Part shown: piece after piece, positions 1 through 5,153 of the stretch
Position numbering within the stretch: the stretch's first letter is position 1
How the letters are laid out: each line of letters begins with the position of its first letter
Origin: Acidiferrimicrobium sp. IK
Lineage (GTDB): Bacteria > Actinomycetota > Acidimicrobiia > Acidimicrobiales > Palsa-688
Direction: 5' to 3'
Assembly: GCF_025499425.1 (NCBI RefSeq)
Contig: NZ_JAIMCB010000003.1
Span: 1-64,000, forward strand
Length of the DNA stretch: 64,000 nucleotides
The notes under the pieces: model-generated
The model's input: the letters and a program-made list of their open reading frames with translations, nothing else
The model's database searches: none
Told to the model about the DNA's origin: nothing
Made by a program: the position numbers and the translations under genes

Positions 1-269
1 GATCCTCGACGACGCCAGCCGAAGCCACCGCAAGTTGGACCCGGCCGAAGGGCTCCAAGACGCCCAGCTCGACACCGGCGCCCGGCTGCACATCGTCCAC
101 TCCGACATCGGTCGAGACGGGCAGGTTTCAGAACGAACTCATGCGGGAGTCGGGGGGTCGATCGAGCCGCCCGGGAGGGGGATGGAGGCGTGTTGGATGA
201 GTGGGTGACTGTGCTACTCCTCCGCAGGATTTGCGCGGTCCGCGAGAATGTTGGAGGTGTAGAGATGGC
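1..269. other. No supported gene
   Basis: Open frames exist here, for example positions 2-205 on the plus strand, but I recognise none of them and they lack a start. This stretch is probably flank or the terminal part of the neighbouring mobile cassette. I found no second copy here of the inverted repeat present at 4623-4785. Confidence 0.4.
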
Positions 270-1808
270 TCAGGCAGCGGCTTGCTGAAAAGCGGCGGGA
301 AAGTGCTGGTCGTGGACGGCGAGGGCTGCTGACATGAAACGCTGGCCGTAAGGGGTGACACGGTAGAGCCGCCGCCGGGGGACCTTGGCGACCAGCCCGT
401 GGCCTCGGAGCTTGACGATGAGCCGGGAGGTTCGGGCGCAGCGGCGCTTGACCTCGACGTCGTCGCGTGCAGGTCGGGGGTAGAGCCGTGCTTGGAGATG
501 AGCGTTGCGGAAGCCGTTGATCAGGTGCTCGCCGGCGAGGGCGGCGCGGAACAAGGCCAGGTCGTCGTGGCCGATCGGGTTGAGCCGGGGGTGTTGTCTT
601 CCCCGGTTGCGTATGGGCCGGCAGTGCCGGTCGAGGACGCGGATGGCGTCGGTGTTGTAGTGAGCGGCGGCGAGGGCCTCCAGGTAGCGTTCGTTGGCGC
701 CCCGGCCGACTTGGTAGTAGCGAGCAAGGTTGGCCACCCCCTTGCGCATCGGGCACCAGACGCGGTGCCCGTTTTTGTTCCGGAGTACCCGGAACTGGGT
801 GGGGTCGTTGATGGTGGTCTCGACCCGAAGCACGTTGGCCTTGTCGTAACACTTGATCGAGTTGCGGGCCATGGTGTGCTTGACTCGCCACCCCTCCGGG
901 CGCCGCCGGGCGGAGCTGGTCACCTCGCAGGCGAGCTGTGGGGTGAGCTTTCGCCCGAGGAAGCGCAGGACATCCTCCGCACTGAACGCGGAGGCGGCGT
1001 GCGCGAACAAGGTGGGCAGGACTGCTTCGAGGTCCCGGCGAGAGCGGAACGCCACGTCGGTGGCCACCTCGGCTTGGTCCACGACCCACCAGTACGGTCC
1101 GTAGCCAGCCTTGCGAAGCATCGCCAGGTGCGGGTTGACCTGGCGGGCCAGGCCATCGAGCAGGCGACTCCAGCGTCGGCTGGCCCACCGCTCGGCCAGG
1201 CGCTGCGCCAGGGACCAGCTCGCCACCGAGACGATGGCGTTGAGGTATCGGGTATGACGCACCCCTTTGGCGGCCAGCGACGTGGACAGGGCTTCGCGGC
1301 CGTTGACCCAGATCTGCACCTCGAAAGGAAGCCACCCCTGAACCCGGACGTGGCAGAACCCGAGCTCGGGGTGGACGAAGTACCAGTAGTAGTGCAGGCA
1401 CTTGCGCCGGCGGCGGATGATCTCGCGGCGTTTGGTCTGCTTGTTGCGGAAGATGTCAAAGCTGCTGCACGGCTCCACCGCGGCCAGCACGCAGATCAGC
1501 CCGGCGACGACACCGTCACGGGCCATGATCGAGCGCGCCAGGTCCTCCTTGCCGTTCCCCTTGGCCTTGGTGTGGGTCTCCGCCAGGTACAGATACGGCC
1601 TGCCCGCCTGGGCAGCCGCGCCCTGGGCGTGCGCTTTCACCTGGTCCGAGAGCCGCTTCGCCCAAGTGCCGAAGTCCTTCAGCAGCACGCCGTGGCGGTC
1701 CAAGAACGCCTTCATCCCACCCTTGGGGTAGAAGCGGGTCAGGTGCCCCTTGAAGATGAGCCGGTCGAAGCCGACCAGCTTGCCAACGACAGCGTCTTGG
1801 TGCACCAT
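270..1808 (-). CDS. Uncharacterised 512-aa protein of the serine-recombinase cassette
   Basis: I do not recognise a family. The protein is rich in Arg, Trp and Tyr, has a basic RREIIRRRRK patch, and ends in what looks like a winged-helix segment (about the last 75 residues, with TSRLIVKLRGHGLVAKVPR followed by a hairpin). This suggests nucleic-acid binding. The frame is open to 2024, but the first 72 residues are low-complexity and overlap a strong hairpin at 1939-1957. I therefore prefer ATG 1808 (MVHQDAVVGK), although no good ribosome site precedes it. It lies downstream of and on the same strand as the recombinase, so it is probably an accessory of that element. Function is inferred from position only. 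Confidence 0.6.
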   Translation of the reverse strand: MVHQDAVVGKLVGFDRLIFKGHLTRFYPKGGMKAFLDRHGVLLKDFGTWAKRLSDQVKAHAQGAAAQAGRPYLYLAETHTKAKGNGKEDLARSIMARDGVVAGLICVLAAVEPCSSFDIFRNKQTKRREIIRRRRKCLHYYWYFVHPELGFCHVRVQGWLPFEVQIWVNGREALSTSLAAKGVRHTRYLNAIVSVASWSLAQRLAERWASRRWSRLLDGLARQVNPHLAMLRKAGYGPYWWVVDQAEVATDVAFRSRRDLEAVLPTLFAHAASAFSAEDVLRFLGRKLTPQLACEVTSSARRRPEGWRVKHTMARNSIKCYDKANVLRVETTINDPTQFRVLRNKNGHRVWCPMRKGVANLARYYQVGRGANERYLEALAAAHYNTDAIRVLDRHCRPIRNRGRQHPRLNPIGHDDLALFRAALAGEHLINGFRNAHLQARLYPRPARDDVEVKRRCARTSRLIVKLRGHGLVAKVPRRRLYRVTPYGQRFMSAALAVHDQHFPAAFQQAAA

Positions 1809-1938
1809 CTCGAACGCGGACACGGCCCGGCCCTCCTGCGGCAACTCGGTGGAGACGACCAGAAGTTCACCGCAGAACCGGGCCGGTCCGCACCTCGCTG
1901 CGGCCTCCTCGGTGAGCCACCACCGACCCGTTCGCATA

Positions 1939-1957
1939 GGGCCGGCTTCGCCGGCCC
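1939..1957. terminator. Strong GC hairpin between recombinase and 512-aa gene
   Basis: GGGCCGGC-TTC-GCCGGCCC is a perfect 8-bp stem with a 3-nt loop. It lies about 80 bp after the recombinase stop and before the next gene on the minus strand. No T-run follows, so it could be an attenuator or a structure used by the element rather than a classic terminator. Confidence 0.4.
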
Positions 1958-2036
1958 GGAACCCGACCCTCGTCACCACGAGGCGGCGCCCACCCGCAGA
2001 CTCCGACCGCCCCCCGCCCGTCACCCCGGTCTCGGC

Positions 2037-3857
2037 TCACCCCAGGCGTTCGGTTGCGGCCGGAGGCTGCGGTAGGAAGCAATCGCCTACTGGCGGCTGA
2101 TACCCGGCGGCGTCGAGAGCGGCAGCGATCTGCGAGTCGGTGTGGTCGTCGATGAGGCGATCGACCTCGGTGACGACGGCGGGGTCGAGCTTGGCGAGGT
2201 CGACGATCGATCTGGGCCGGGGTAGTTGGAAGCTGCGGGTGTCGCCGCCTCGGAAGCGGACGTGGACGTCGAGCACCTGGTTTCCGAGGCACAGGGTGAC
2301 GTCGTCGATGATCAGTCGGGCCATACGCTTGCGCTCGCGCGCCGGTGTCTCCGGGTCGGCCCAGAGCCGCGGGAAGTCGGTGGCCAGAGCCAGGATGGCC
2401 TGGCGTTTCTCGTCGTCGAGGAGGACGTCGGTTTTCCGTTGACGTTCGTAATGCTCCTGCGCCGTGTCCAGGGCCCGGAGCTTGTTGTTCCACTCTGCTT
2501 CCAGGGTGACGGCGACGAGACGGTTGTCGGGGTCGACGCGCAGATAGCGTCGCTGGGCCAGTTCGGCCTCGTAGCGGGCCCGTTCCACGGACTGGCGGCG
2601 GAGGCGGTCAGCCTCGTCGGCCCGCGAGGCCAGCTCGTCTTGCACCGAGAGAGCCACCTCCAAGGCCAGTGGGGTCATCGTCTCGATCAGAAGCTCTCCG
2701 ATGGCCCGGTCGACATCGGCGCCCACGATCCGCTGGCACGGTGATTCCGCCCGCTTGATGCCCTCGACCTGACAGGTGTATTGGGGCACGGCTTTGCCGT
2801 GGCGCATGTAATAGCGGATCGTCATGCGTCCGCCGCAGCGACCGCAGACAGCCAAGCCCTGGAGGAGGGCCGGGCCTTCTCGTGGGGGTCCGTGACGGCG
2901 GTCGCCGCCATAGGCGGCGGAGTTGGCTCGCAGTTGGGTCAGGTTCTGTTCGTGCTCGGCCCAGGTGATGTAGCCGGGATGGGCGTCGAGGATGAGGGTG
3001 TGCCAGTCTTCGCGGGGAAGGGTCTGGCGGATCCCGTTGGGCTGGGAGGTCTTCTTGGCCCGGGTGCGCCCATAGGCGAACGCCCCGGCATAGCGGGGGT
3101 TCTTCAACACGTTGAGGGCCCGATAGTGCAGCAGCGGCCCCCAGGCCAGTTCACCCTTGTGGGCACCGGACTGAACGCGACGGGGGAAAAGCCACCCTGC
3201 CTCGCGGAAGGCCCGAACGGTGGCAGTCGCCGACGTCGTGCGCCGGAAGGTCTCGAAGAACTGGCGGACGGCTTCTTGCACGGAGACATCCGGGTCGAGC
3301 ACCACACGGCCAGCGGTGTCATAGACAAGCCCGACCGGGAGGGGCACTTCCAGCTCGCCCCGGCGGGCCTTGGTCAGCTGGCCGCCGATGAGCCGGGCCC
3401 GCAGCACGTGCAGCTCCGCCTCGGACATGGTGCCCTTCATCCCCAACAGCAGCCTGTCGTTGAAGTGGCTCGGGTCATACAAGCCGTCCTCGTCGAGGAT
3501 CAGCGTGTCGGCCAGCGCGCAGATCTCCAAAAGCCGGTGCCAGTCCGAGGAGTTGCGGGCGAGGCGGGAGACCTCGAGGCCCAGCACCACGCCGACCTCT
3601 CCGATGCCGACCGCGGCCACGAGACGCAGGAAGCCTGCCCGGTCGGTGTCAGCGCCGGACTGGCCGAGATCGGAGTCGATCACCACTACTTGCTCCGGCT
3701 TCCAGCCCAGTGCCACCGCCCGTTCGCGCAGCGCGTACTGACGTTTGGTCGACTCGGTGTTCTCCAGCACCTGGCGCAGGGTCGACTGGCGGACATACAG
3801 GCATGCCTGGCGGGCGAGGTGAGCGGCCGTGATCTTGTTGCGGGCCTCAAGGTTCAT
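2037..3857 (-). CDS. Large serine recombinase (resolvase/recombinase/zinc-ribbon)
   Basis: Site-specific DNA recombinase of 606 aa that cuts DNA through an active-site serine. The N-terminal resolvase domain has the YVRQS motif (catalytic Ser25, Arg23) and the conserved EVSRLARN segment. A recombinase domain follows (LNVLKNPRYAGAFAYGR), then a zinc ribbon (CGRCGGRM...YTC...C) and a coiled coil. I chose ATG 3857 because it overlaps the stop of the upstream 90-aa gene (ATGA). The frame extends 48 residues further upstream, but only in low-complexity sequence. This is the likely mobility enzyme of the 270-5060 cassette. It is not closely similar to the other serine recombinase at 53228-54907. 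Confidence 0.93.
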   Translation of the reverse strand: MNLEARNKITAAHLARQACLYVRQSTLRQVLENTESTKRQYALRERAVALGWKPEQVVVIDSDLGQSGADTDRAGFLRLVAAVGIGEVGVVLGLEVSRLARNSSDWHRLLEICALADTLILDEDGLYDPSHFNDRLLLGMKGTMSEAELHVLRARLIGGQLTKARRGELEVPLPVGLVYDTAGRVVLDPDVSVQEAVRQFFETFRRTTSATATVRAFREAGWLFPRRVQSGAHKGELAWGPLLHYRALNVLKNPRYAGAFAYGRTRAKKTSQPNGIRQTLPREDWHTLILDAHPGYITWAEHEQNLTQLRANSAAYGGDRRHGPPREGPALLQGLAVCGRCGGRMTIRYYMRHGKAVPQYTCQVEGIKRAESPCQRIVGADVDRAIGELLIETMTPLALEVALSVQDELASRADEADRLRRQSVERARYEAELAQRRYLRVDPDNRLVAVTLEAEWNNKLRALDTAQEHYERQRKTDVLLDDEKRQAILALATDFPRLWADPETPARERKRMARLIIDDVTLCLGNQVLDVHVRFRGGDTRSFQLPRPRSIVDLAKLDPAVVTEVDRLIDDHTDSQIAAALDAAGYQPPVGDCFLPQPPAATERLG

Positions 3858-4126
3858 GACACCACCAGCGGGGTGCGACGTCCCAGCGCCATCTCGGTCA
3901 GCACGCGCACCACTTCGGCCCCGACTCCGGCCGCCACCGGTCGCTGACTGGCCGCAACGACGGGCGAGGTCGCCGGGAGCGGGCTCCAGGCCCGCATCCA
4001 CGCCGGCAGGCCCTGGCTCAGCATCAGCGTCAGCCCGCGGGGCGTGTCGCAGGCAACCTGCCCGGTCACCGCTGCCCTCAGGGCCTCATAGCCGGCGCAG
4101 AGCTCGTCGGCTGGCCTGCCGCTCAT
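3854..4126 (-). CDS. Small 90-aa protein coupled to the serine recombinase
   Basis: No family recognised. The start overlaps the stop of the HTH gene (4123-4126) and the stop overlaps the recombinase start (3854-3857), both by ATGA. It is therefore the middle gene of a translationally coupled trio. Composition is Ala/Pro/Leu-rich with no clear membrane segment. The coupling argues that it is translated in fixed ratio with the recombinase, perhaps as a partner or directionality factor. That role is inference. Confidence 0.7.
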   Translation of the reverse strand: MSGRPADELCAGYEALRAAVTGQVACDTPRGLTLMLSQGLPAWMRAWSPLPATSPVVAASQRPVAAGVGAEVVRVLTEMALGRRTPLVVS

Positions 4127-4599
4127 AGGTTCGGGCCGCTGTGGTCTTTTGGGCGGCGGGCGAGGGCGCGTTCAACGCTTCTGGGATGCACCCGCAGCCC
4201 GAACTCGGCTTGCGCCAACTCGACAAGGTCAGCGGAGGACAGCACCGGATCAGCGGCTGCTGCCTGCGCGAGCCGCTCCACGACCGCCTCGGTCAGCTTG
4301 TGAGCCCGTCTCGGCCCGGGCCGCTTCGCCAACAGCCCGGGGAGGCCAGCGGCCTCGAAGGCCGCCTTGGCCTCATAGAACGACGGTCTGGAGAAACCGA
4401 AGGTCGTGGCCGCGTCGCTCACCGTCGATCCGTCCTGGCGGGCCCGGCGCAGCATCTCGTATTTCACCTGCACCAAATCCCGTGCGTCGAAGAACTCAGA
4501 AGCGGTGAACCCTGCGTCGCTCACAGCCTCCGGACGGGGATTGAGCGCCCTTGCCGCCCGCAGCGCCTCCTCCTTCGGATCCGGCCTCTTCTTAGCCAT
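4123..4599 (-). CDS. Helix-turn-helix protein of the recombinase cassette
   Basis: 158-aa basic protein whose central part (about residues 55-110: GSTVSDAATTFGFSRPSFYEAKAAFEAAGLPGLL) is a transposase-type helix-turn-helix of the IS481/IS630 kind. A second helical part (LTEAVVERLAQ...LVELAQAEFGLRVHPRSVERAL) follows. There is no DDE catalytic domain, so it binds DNA but does not cut. First gene of the minus-strand coupled operon. It probably recognises the inverted repeats just upstream (4623-4785), either as a regulator or as the targeting subunit for the recombinase. Confidence 0.8.
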   Translation of the reverse strand: MAKKRPDPKEEALRAARALNPRPEAVSDAGFTASEFFDARDLVQVKYEMLRRARQDGSTVSDAATTFGFSRPSFYEAKAAFEAAGLPGLLAKRPGPRRAHKLTEAVVERLAQAAAADPVLSSADLVELAQAEFGLRVHPRSVERALARRPKDHSGPNL

Positions 4600-4622
4600 C
4601 GCACCTCCTGATAATCACAAAC

Positions 4623-4785
4623 GTGTAAGGCATATTATGCCGACACTGCACGACGGCTGTCAACGACCGCCATGAGATACGCCTGCAACAGAGGAACGTT
4701 CTGGCGTGACATGGCGGCCAGAGCGGGCATCCGACCCACCACCGGCAGAATGCACCTTACATACCCGGCATAGTTCGCCTTACAC
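4623..4785. repeat. Inverted repeat pair flanking the cassette's divergence region
   Basis: Positions 4766-4785 read CGGCATAGTTCGCCTTACAC. The reverse complement of 4623-4642 reads CGGCATAATATGCCTTACAC, so 17 of 20 positions match. The left arm also holds a dyad, GGCATA-T-TATGCC (4629-4641). A related direct copy (ACCTTACATACC) lies at 4754-4765. The repeats lie between the HTH gene start and the end of the DUF5372-type frame, and the right arm overlaps the last codons of that frame. Candidate operator or recombination site. Confidence 0.6.
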
Positions 4786-5059
4786 CCCGGGCGCGTGTCG
4801 GCGGGCGCAGACCATCAAGCAGATCCGCCAGCGCAAGAAGATCCGCCGGGCGGAACACCGACCGCCCAGCCGACATCACCACGAACGCGTCGGGAGCTTC
4901 GACGTCGGTCCAACTCGCCGGCAGCGAGAAGACCCGCTGGTCATCGGGCTTGCGGAAGAACACCCGGTGCTCCCCCCACGTGTGGGCGAAGCCCACCATC
5001 TCGTACTCCTCGCCCACCAACGGGTGAAACGGGTGGGTGATACGGAACCGCTGCGGATC
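4757..5059 (-). pseudogene. DUF5372-type protein, 5' end missing
   Basis: The translated block has the features I associate with DUF5372: FRITHPFHPL, WGEHRVFF, SLPASWTDV and AGRSVFR near the C-terminus. Members are small proteins of unknown role that, from memory, sit beside recombinase/HTH cassettes in rhizobia and actinobacteria. No ATG, GTG or TTG lies in frame just before the conserved block. The nearest in-frame ATG is about 130 bp upstream, inside the IclR leader. The gene is therefore probably truncated where the element meets the chromosome, or it carries a frameshift. It is transcribed towards the HTH gene, on the same strand. Confidence 0.55.
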
Positions 5060-5153
5060 GCTGCCCTCACGAGCAGTTGACGGTGGACGATAAGCCGCGG
5101 GTCGAACGCCAGGTGCCGATTCAGCGAGCCGGGGTTTCTCAGCCGGAAATCCC

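Follow-up and report, generated by a model that had tools for sequence, protein, structure and literature searches.

A one-gene mobile element predicted to encode a Rep_trans-like endonuclease lies inside the recombinase gene of a serine-recombinase transposon

The left end of a contig of Acidiferrimicrobium sp. IK (genome 5.08 Mb) carries a serine-recombinase gene and four companion frames, and the question that this locus raises is whether they form one mobile element or more. The window (the whole stretch analysed, 64,000 nucleotides) starts at that contig end. A sequence-only reading had taken the five frames as one under-described transposon. All five are present, all on the minus strand. 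As that reading had stated, the HTH gene (4123-4599), the gene for a 90-aa protein (3854-4126) and the recombinase gene (start 3857) are connected by two ATGA overlaps of 4 nt, and the frame described as DUF5372-type matches Pfam PF17342 (E 1.5e-22). The recombinase has the Pfam domains Resolvase, Recombinase and Zn_ribbon_recom, and several Pfam HTH models match the HTH protein. The fifth frame had been described as a 512-aa protein with no recognisable family, and it has no Pfam match at E<=1. The GTG at 1826 is a more plausible start for this gene, giving a protein of 518 aa, and the closest homologues begin at the same codon. Comparison with copies elsewhere indicates that the window holds two nested mobile elements and not one, with element B inside the recombinase gene of element A. 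The features are as follows.

210..2072, minus strand: element B, a one-gene mobile element of 1,863 bp; left end (2072) placed by the end of recombinase homology and an end motif common to L009-L011, right end (210) by alignment with L009-L011 and less certain
270..1826, minus strand: the only gene of element B (518 aa from a GTG start); its product is predicted to be a Rep_trans-like endonuclease of TBP fold with a winged HTH at the C-terminus, and D21, E253, Y327 and E336 are the candidate catalytic residues
2052..2071, minus strand: element B left-end motif CGCAGCCTCCGGCCGCAACC, an imperfect palindrome whose folding is not significant
210..260, minus strand: element B right end, potential stem (z -2.6)
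2073..2075, minus strand: CTA at the left joint of element B, a trinucleotide seen at left joints across the family
2076..3857, minus strand: element A serine recombinase gene, 3'-truncated after about 594 residues; the frame continues into element B to 2037
3854..4126, minus strand: element A 90-aa protein, with weak similarity to the small protein in copies from rhizobia
4123..4599, minus strand: element A HTH protein, 158 aa
4757..5050, minus strand: element A DUF5372 protein, upper limit approximate

Element A is, as judged from its relatives, a serine-recombinase transposon made up of genes for a DUF5372 protein, an HTH protein, a small protein and the recombinase. Matches to the recombinase (tblastn) occur in 474 plasmid records, mostly rhizobial. 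The gene order DUF5372-HTH-small-recombinase is constant in Rhizobiales and Rhodococcus: the four genes lie in that order in NGR234 (pNGR234a), Rhodococcus opacus and Bradyrhizobium barranii, and in S. medicae the HTH and small genes are annotated as a single frame. In Chlorohelix the DUF5372 and recombinase genes are present. A chance neighbourhood can be dismissed, since the set is found in this order elsewhere too. The window HTH protein aligns clearly with its counterparts and the small protein weakly. The sequence-only reading had placed similar partners beside recombinases on rhizobial symbiotic plasmids (y4bA-D), and pNGR234a does carry the four-gene set. The proposed co-occurrence of all the partners is borne out for these four genes but not for the 512-aa gene, which is absent from the other copies.

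Comparison of multiple copies, which had been suggested as a way to define the ends and the target, gave both. With a 7.5-kb stretch of S. medicae DNA that spans one copy as query, 271 plasmid records matched, and many of the matches are bounded at query positions 1779 and 5098. The Sinorhizobium element between these positions is 3.32 kb long and has sharp CCTT...CCTT ends (|CCTTCTTTCAAG ... GTCTGCTCCTT|). Joining the flanks restores transposase frames, of IS21 type in seven loci (L050 and L159-L164) and of ISNCY type in one (L047); several of the Sinorhizobium insertions have one common flank, so not all are independent events. The site is AAGG inside the codons of DKAKVE, AKAKLE, TKGKDE or QAKGRVE, which is the catalytic-Glu motif of DDE transposases. 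Two further copies in the genome of the window also adjoin interrupted transposase genes. One (L042, 6293-8451) adjoins an IS21-like gene cut at DPASKA (rve E 6e-7, just below the Pfam cut-off). The gene beside the other (L043, reverse complement, to about 9215) is of IS3 type, with an rve match at E 1.4e-21, and is broken at DALDKAMAS. Comparison of these copies shows a target specificity for catalytic-Glu codons, and it suggests that intact relatives of element A insert via a CCTT/AAGG core into these codons of rve-type (DDE) transposase genes. These are the most conserved codons in the transposases of other elements, and by landing there element A has targets in several IS families.

The pattern of insertion is alike in Rhizobiales and in this actinobacterial genome: the IS21-, IS3- and ISNCY-type genes are all entered at AAGG within catalytic-Glu codons. 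The window HTH protein (4123-4599), on which targeting may depend according to the sequence-only reading, resembles the N-terminal, DNA-binding part of IS630/IS481 transposases (NF033545, E 1.2e-12), and the targets are transposase genes of other families than these. Element A has in common with large-serine-recombinase transposons a Resolvase, Recombinase and Zn-ribbon protein and a short core at both ends, but differs from them in its conserved DUF5372, HTH and small partners and in its insertion into catalytic-Glu codons of DDE transposase genes.

The common boundaries of element A were defined on the Sinorhizobium copies, those of the window copy itself not being definable. In comparison with L042 (83% identical DNA), the window recombinase loses homology at about 2076, after 594 residues, and L042 runs about 120 residues further. 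The left end of element B lies where this homology stops, so the window recombinase is truncated. The missing C-terminus is absent from the DNA to the left of element B (window 1-330 checked), and this copy of element A is truncated and probably dead. The proposal of one under-described transposon thus stands for the DUF5372-HTH-small-recombinase set, which has common boundaries and a specific target; the 512-aa gene belongs to a second, unrelated element.

Three MAG contigs (L009-L011) encode proteins that are 64-71% identical to the element B protein. Alignment of their DNA with the window extends from about 2077 to 209 and stops there, and the outside flanks differ (the one in L011 looks like the last part of a tyrosine-integrase gene). 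The left limit common to the window and these contigs is (C/A)TA-n-CGCAGCCTTCGGCCGCAACC. The family is patchily distributed, in 18 of 298 genomes of the order and 16 of 396 of a phylum sample, and it occurs in 23 plasmid records, Burkholderiales among these. Many distant members are fragments or are frameshifted; such copies are usual for mobile DNA. The ends of single-copy elements were placed by similarity and not by comparison of junctions. In one genome (G297) there are several near-identical copies (about 99%) that break the assembly. Here five left junctions read [T/A]CTA|ATGAGGC and five right junctions read GAGCCCTAG|, with unrelated DNA outside in each case. Both ends are also present in three Burkholderiales copies (93-95% identical) that lie on two plasmids with different flanks and read CTA|ACGAGG ... 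GAATCTA|G. In distant members the right end finishes in TAG, mostly CTAG, and the left end, where placeable, is preceded by CTA or TTA, and a GC-rich palindrome often lies immediately within it.

An empty site was found for a copy in Caballeronia SBC2, which sits in codons 4-5 of a gene (MDILDSLRQ...). Joining its flanks at CTA|G gives MDILDSLRQAPSAELYRLYLAIGK..., and both C. zhejiangensis and Cupriavidus P-10 have this sequence uninterrupted. The G of CTA|G is host sequence (an Asp codon in the relatives), and the CTA at the joint may be either element-borne or duplicated. The joined flanks of a Paraburkholderia copy had no second record. Taken together, the left end that meets the end of recombinase homology, the end motif shared between differing flanks, the multicopy junctions, the CTAG right ends and the empty site show by comparison that element B is mobile and separate from element A. 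By the same kind of evidence, it has discrete ends without inverted repeats, inserts at CTA|G with the target otherwise unaltered and is present in multiple copies.

Terminal inverted repeats are absent from the three elements compared, where the longest exact end-to-end match is 3-6 bases and 5-7 of the 20 terminal bases match. The end palindromes vary in sequence across the family and keep their position. Hairpin statistics are convincing for one left end (L141) and two right ends (L059 and L143), moderate for the right end in the window, and not significant for most other ends of the family, the left end in the window included. Other copies of the left-end motif in the genome are 3-mismatch matches only, at control frequency.

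At the right end in the window the TA is missing (CACA|G), and the DNA that flanks it does not supply the lost part of the recombinase, so either the window copy has been rearranged or this end is misplaced. Window 1-209 matched nothing that was compared with it, as would be seen after a deletion or rearrangement that followed insertion, or with a displaced right end. Elsewhere in the family, the last 20 nt of one element (GGGCACCAGAGGAGCCCTAG) are repeated in tandem at a contig end (L140, 3680-3761), and in G297 an inverted partial copy of the right end directly follows a right end (L056, 1053-1140).

What kind of enzyme the 518-aa protein might be was approached through its sequence and its predicted structure. 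Searches of Pfam, NCBIfam and PHROGs with 18 family members matched no known transposase, the supported matches being to winged-HTH models only, and among members of the family there is no match to rve/DDE models. PF02486, the Rep_trans model, matches none of the 18 at E<=1, and for this reason the protein is not filed in that family. An hhalign profile comparison with the RepDE segment found nothing, and there are no Rep_trans genes in 119 related genomes. The AlphaFold2 model (pLDDT 86.4 for the whole protein and 91.5 for residues 1-395) suggests a TBP-like domain and a winged HTH. No Foldseek match to it passes E 0.001. With VIA-align, the first 39 rows are all TBPs (Z up to 8.3) or Rep_trans structures, and the remainder are at 6.5 and below. 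The Rep_trans structures are 4cwe (Z 7.2), 4cwc (7.1) and 4cij (6.6), over 179-187 residues at an rmsd of 4.7-4.8, and are not significant in Foldseek. Unrelated folds can score a VIA Z of 7-8 as well, and this alone is insufficient; we take the match seriously because the residue pattern fits.

The motifs of Rep_trans enzymes are D (N'), RxDxAxD (I), RxYxK (III, with the catalytic Tyr) and RxE (IV) (PMC4797284, Carr et al.; PMC5714925, review), and the RepDE segment RIYNK was confirmed in PDB 4cwc. In the element B family the invariant or nearly invariant residues are D21, Q251-x-E253, K325-x-Y327-x-K329 and R334-x-E336, and A255 and D257 are conserved in the window clade (QxExAxD). The order D21, QxExAxD, KxYxK, RxE is that of Rep_trans N', I, III and IV. 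Motif III is present as YxK with the invariant Y327 on a beta strand (322-329). Of the three acidic ligands of Rep_trans enzymes (Asp in N', RxD in motif I and RxE in motif IV), the first and last have candidates in D21 and R334-x-E336, motif I is Q251-x-E253 and not RxD, and the E after YxK is absent. There is no HUH histidine motif, since no His is invariant or nearly so in 18-26 sequences. From the model and the conserved residues, we think it probable that the protein works like a Rep_trans enzyme.

With Rep_trans (PF02486) initiators and MOBT relaxases (RepD/RepDE, RepSTK1, RelSt3) the protein shares a predicted TBP-like catalytic domain and the order D, acidic, YxK, RxE; the spacing of D177 to Y252 in RelSt3 is close to the acidic-to-Tyr spacing of 74 in element B. 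It differs from them in having no detectable sequence similarity, QxE in place of RxD, a longer stretch before motif I and a C-terminal winged HTH, and it is encoded alone on an inserted element, not as part of a plasmid or ICE. An archaeal family published in 2026, Rep-Arvir, likewise has a TBP-like catalytic domain followed by a winged HTH (MarR-like), its sequence similarity to Rep_trans is equally invisible and it too is weak in Foldseek against the PDB (PMC13107129). The viral TBP model A0A2N9QVX7 was met both by the Rep-Arvir authors and in our viral-library search with element B. However, Rep-Arvir replicates archaeal viruses and plasmids, carries DUF7845 (no match in the element B protein) and is not a transposon (PMC13107129).

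Among transposons, IS91 and Helitrons use HUH rolling-circle transposases (PMC5714925). Element B has in common with the HUH elements IS91/ISCR/Helitrons and IS200/IS605 a single transposase gene, the lack of inverted repeats, a short fixed joint sequence and, in part of its family, palindromes near the ends. HUH transposases have the HUH fold and its His motif, in contrast with the element B protein, which lacks an invariant His and is predicted to fold differently. To our knowledge, all rolling-circle or single-strand transposases described so far are HUH enzymes.

We therefore consider several accounts of element B. That it is a separate one-gene transposon in the recombinase gene of element A, its protein being most probably a Rep_trans-like tyrosine endonuclease that combines a TBP fold with a winged HTH, is the reading that we favour, and we hold it to be fairly likely. 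In such an element the winged HTH would bind the ends, and Y327 would nick after CTA (TA) at the left end to give a 5'-phosphotyrosine, with D21, E253 and E336 holding the metal. A single strand would be freed by rolling-circle replication or by peeling, and would be joined to target DNA cut at CTA|G; the target and joint come from comparison of copies, and the strand chemistry we infer. It is unlikely that element B is instead a cut-and-paste IS with a nuclease of a class not yet recognised, and that it duplicates TA (as Tc1/IS630-type elements do) or CTA, its TBP-like fold being incidental. The left joint CTA and right joint CTA|G fit a 2-bp or a 3-bp duplication equally, but such an element has to be set against the missing inverted repeats, the failure of rve/DDE or any other transposase model to match, and invariant residues among which a YxK/RxE pattern, but no DDE triad, is found.

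Resemblance of the protein to replication initiators, and the tyrosine-integrase genes that adjoin some elements (L011, L013), would also suit integrated rolling-circle plasmids or satellites, in which the Rep is replicative only and a host or helper recombinase inserts the DNA at CTA|G. We regard this as quite improbable: each element has one gene, integrase genes are not conserved neighbours, no family member or free form was found among 50,697 phage records, and the plasmid matches lie inside large replicons. An accessory role for the 512-aa gene in the serine-recombinase cassette has next to no probability; it is adjacent and on the same strand in the window, but its position exactly at the end of recombinase homology, together with its own ends and its relatives elsewhere, rules it out as a cassette member.

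Returning to the one-gene transposon with a Rep_trans-like enzyme, we find it somewhat more probable than the opposite that element B founds a new transposon class, in which, in Actinomycetota and Burkholderiales, a single-gene element is carried into CTA|G by a TBP-fold Rep_trans-like tyrosine endonuclease, with a single-stranded or rolling-circle intermediate. Transposases that we know of fall in few enzyme classes. If correct, this would add a new one and would connect transposition with the replication initiators of plasmids, a link that HUH enzymes already make for IS91 and Helitrons. The novelty of the class would depend on the predicted enzyme; without it, element B is still an insertion-sequence family undescribed in the databases searched. 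No earlier description of element A or element B was found in the open-access papers searched; ISfinder and subscription papers were outside the search, and either element may have been named before. At present, members of the element B family are annotated as hypothetical proteins or as ArsR regulators and are thus overlooked in genomes. One member on a Paraburkholderia plasmid (L012, 7959-9470) is annotated as an ArsR family transcriptional regulator, and a Mycobacterium riyadhense plasmid (L014, 4227-7644) carries two distantly related genes of the family head to tail.
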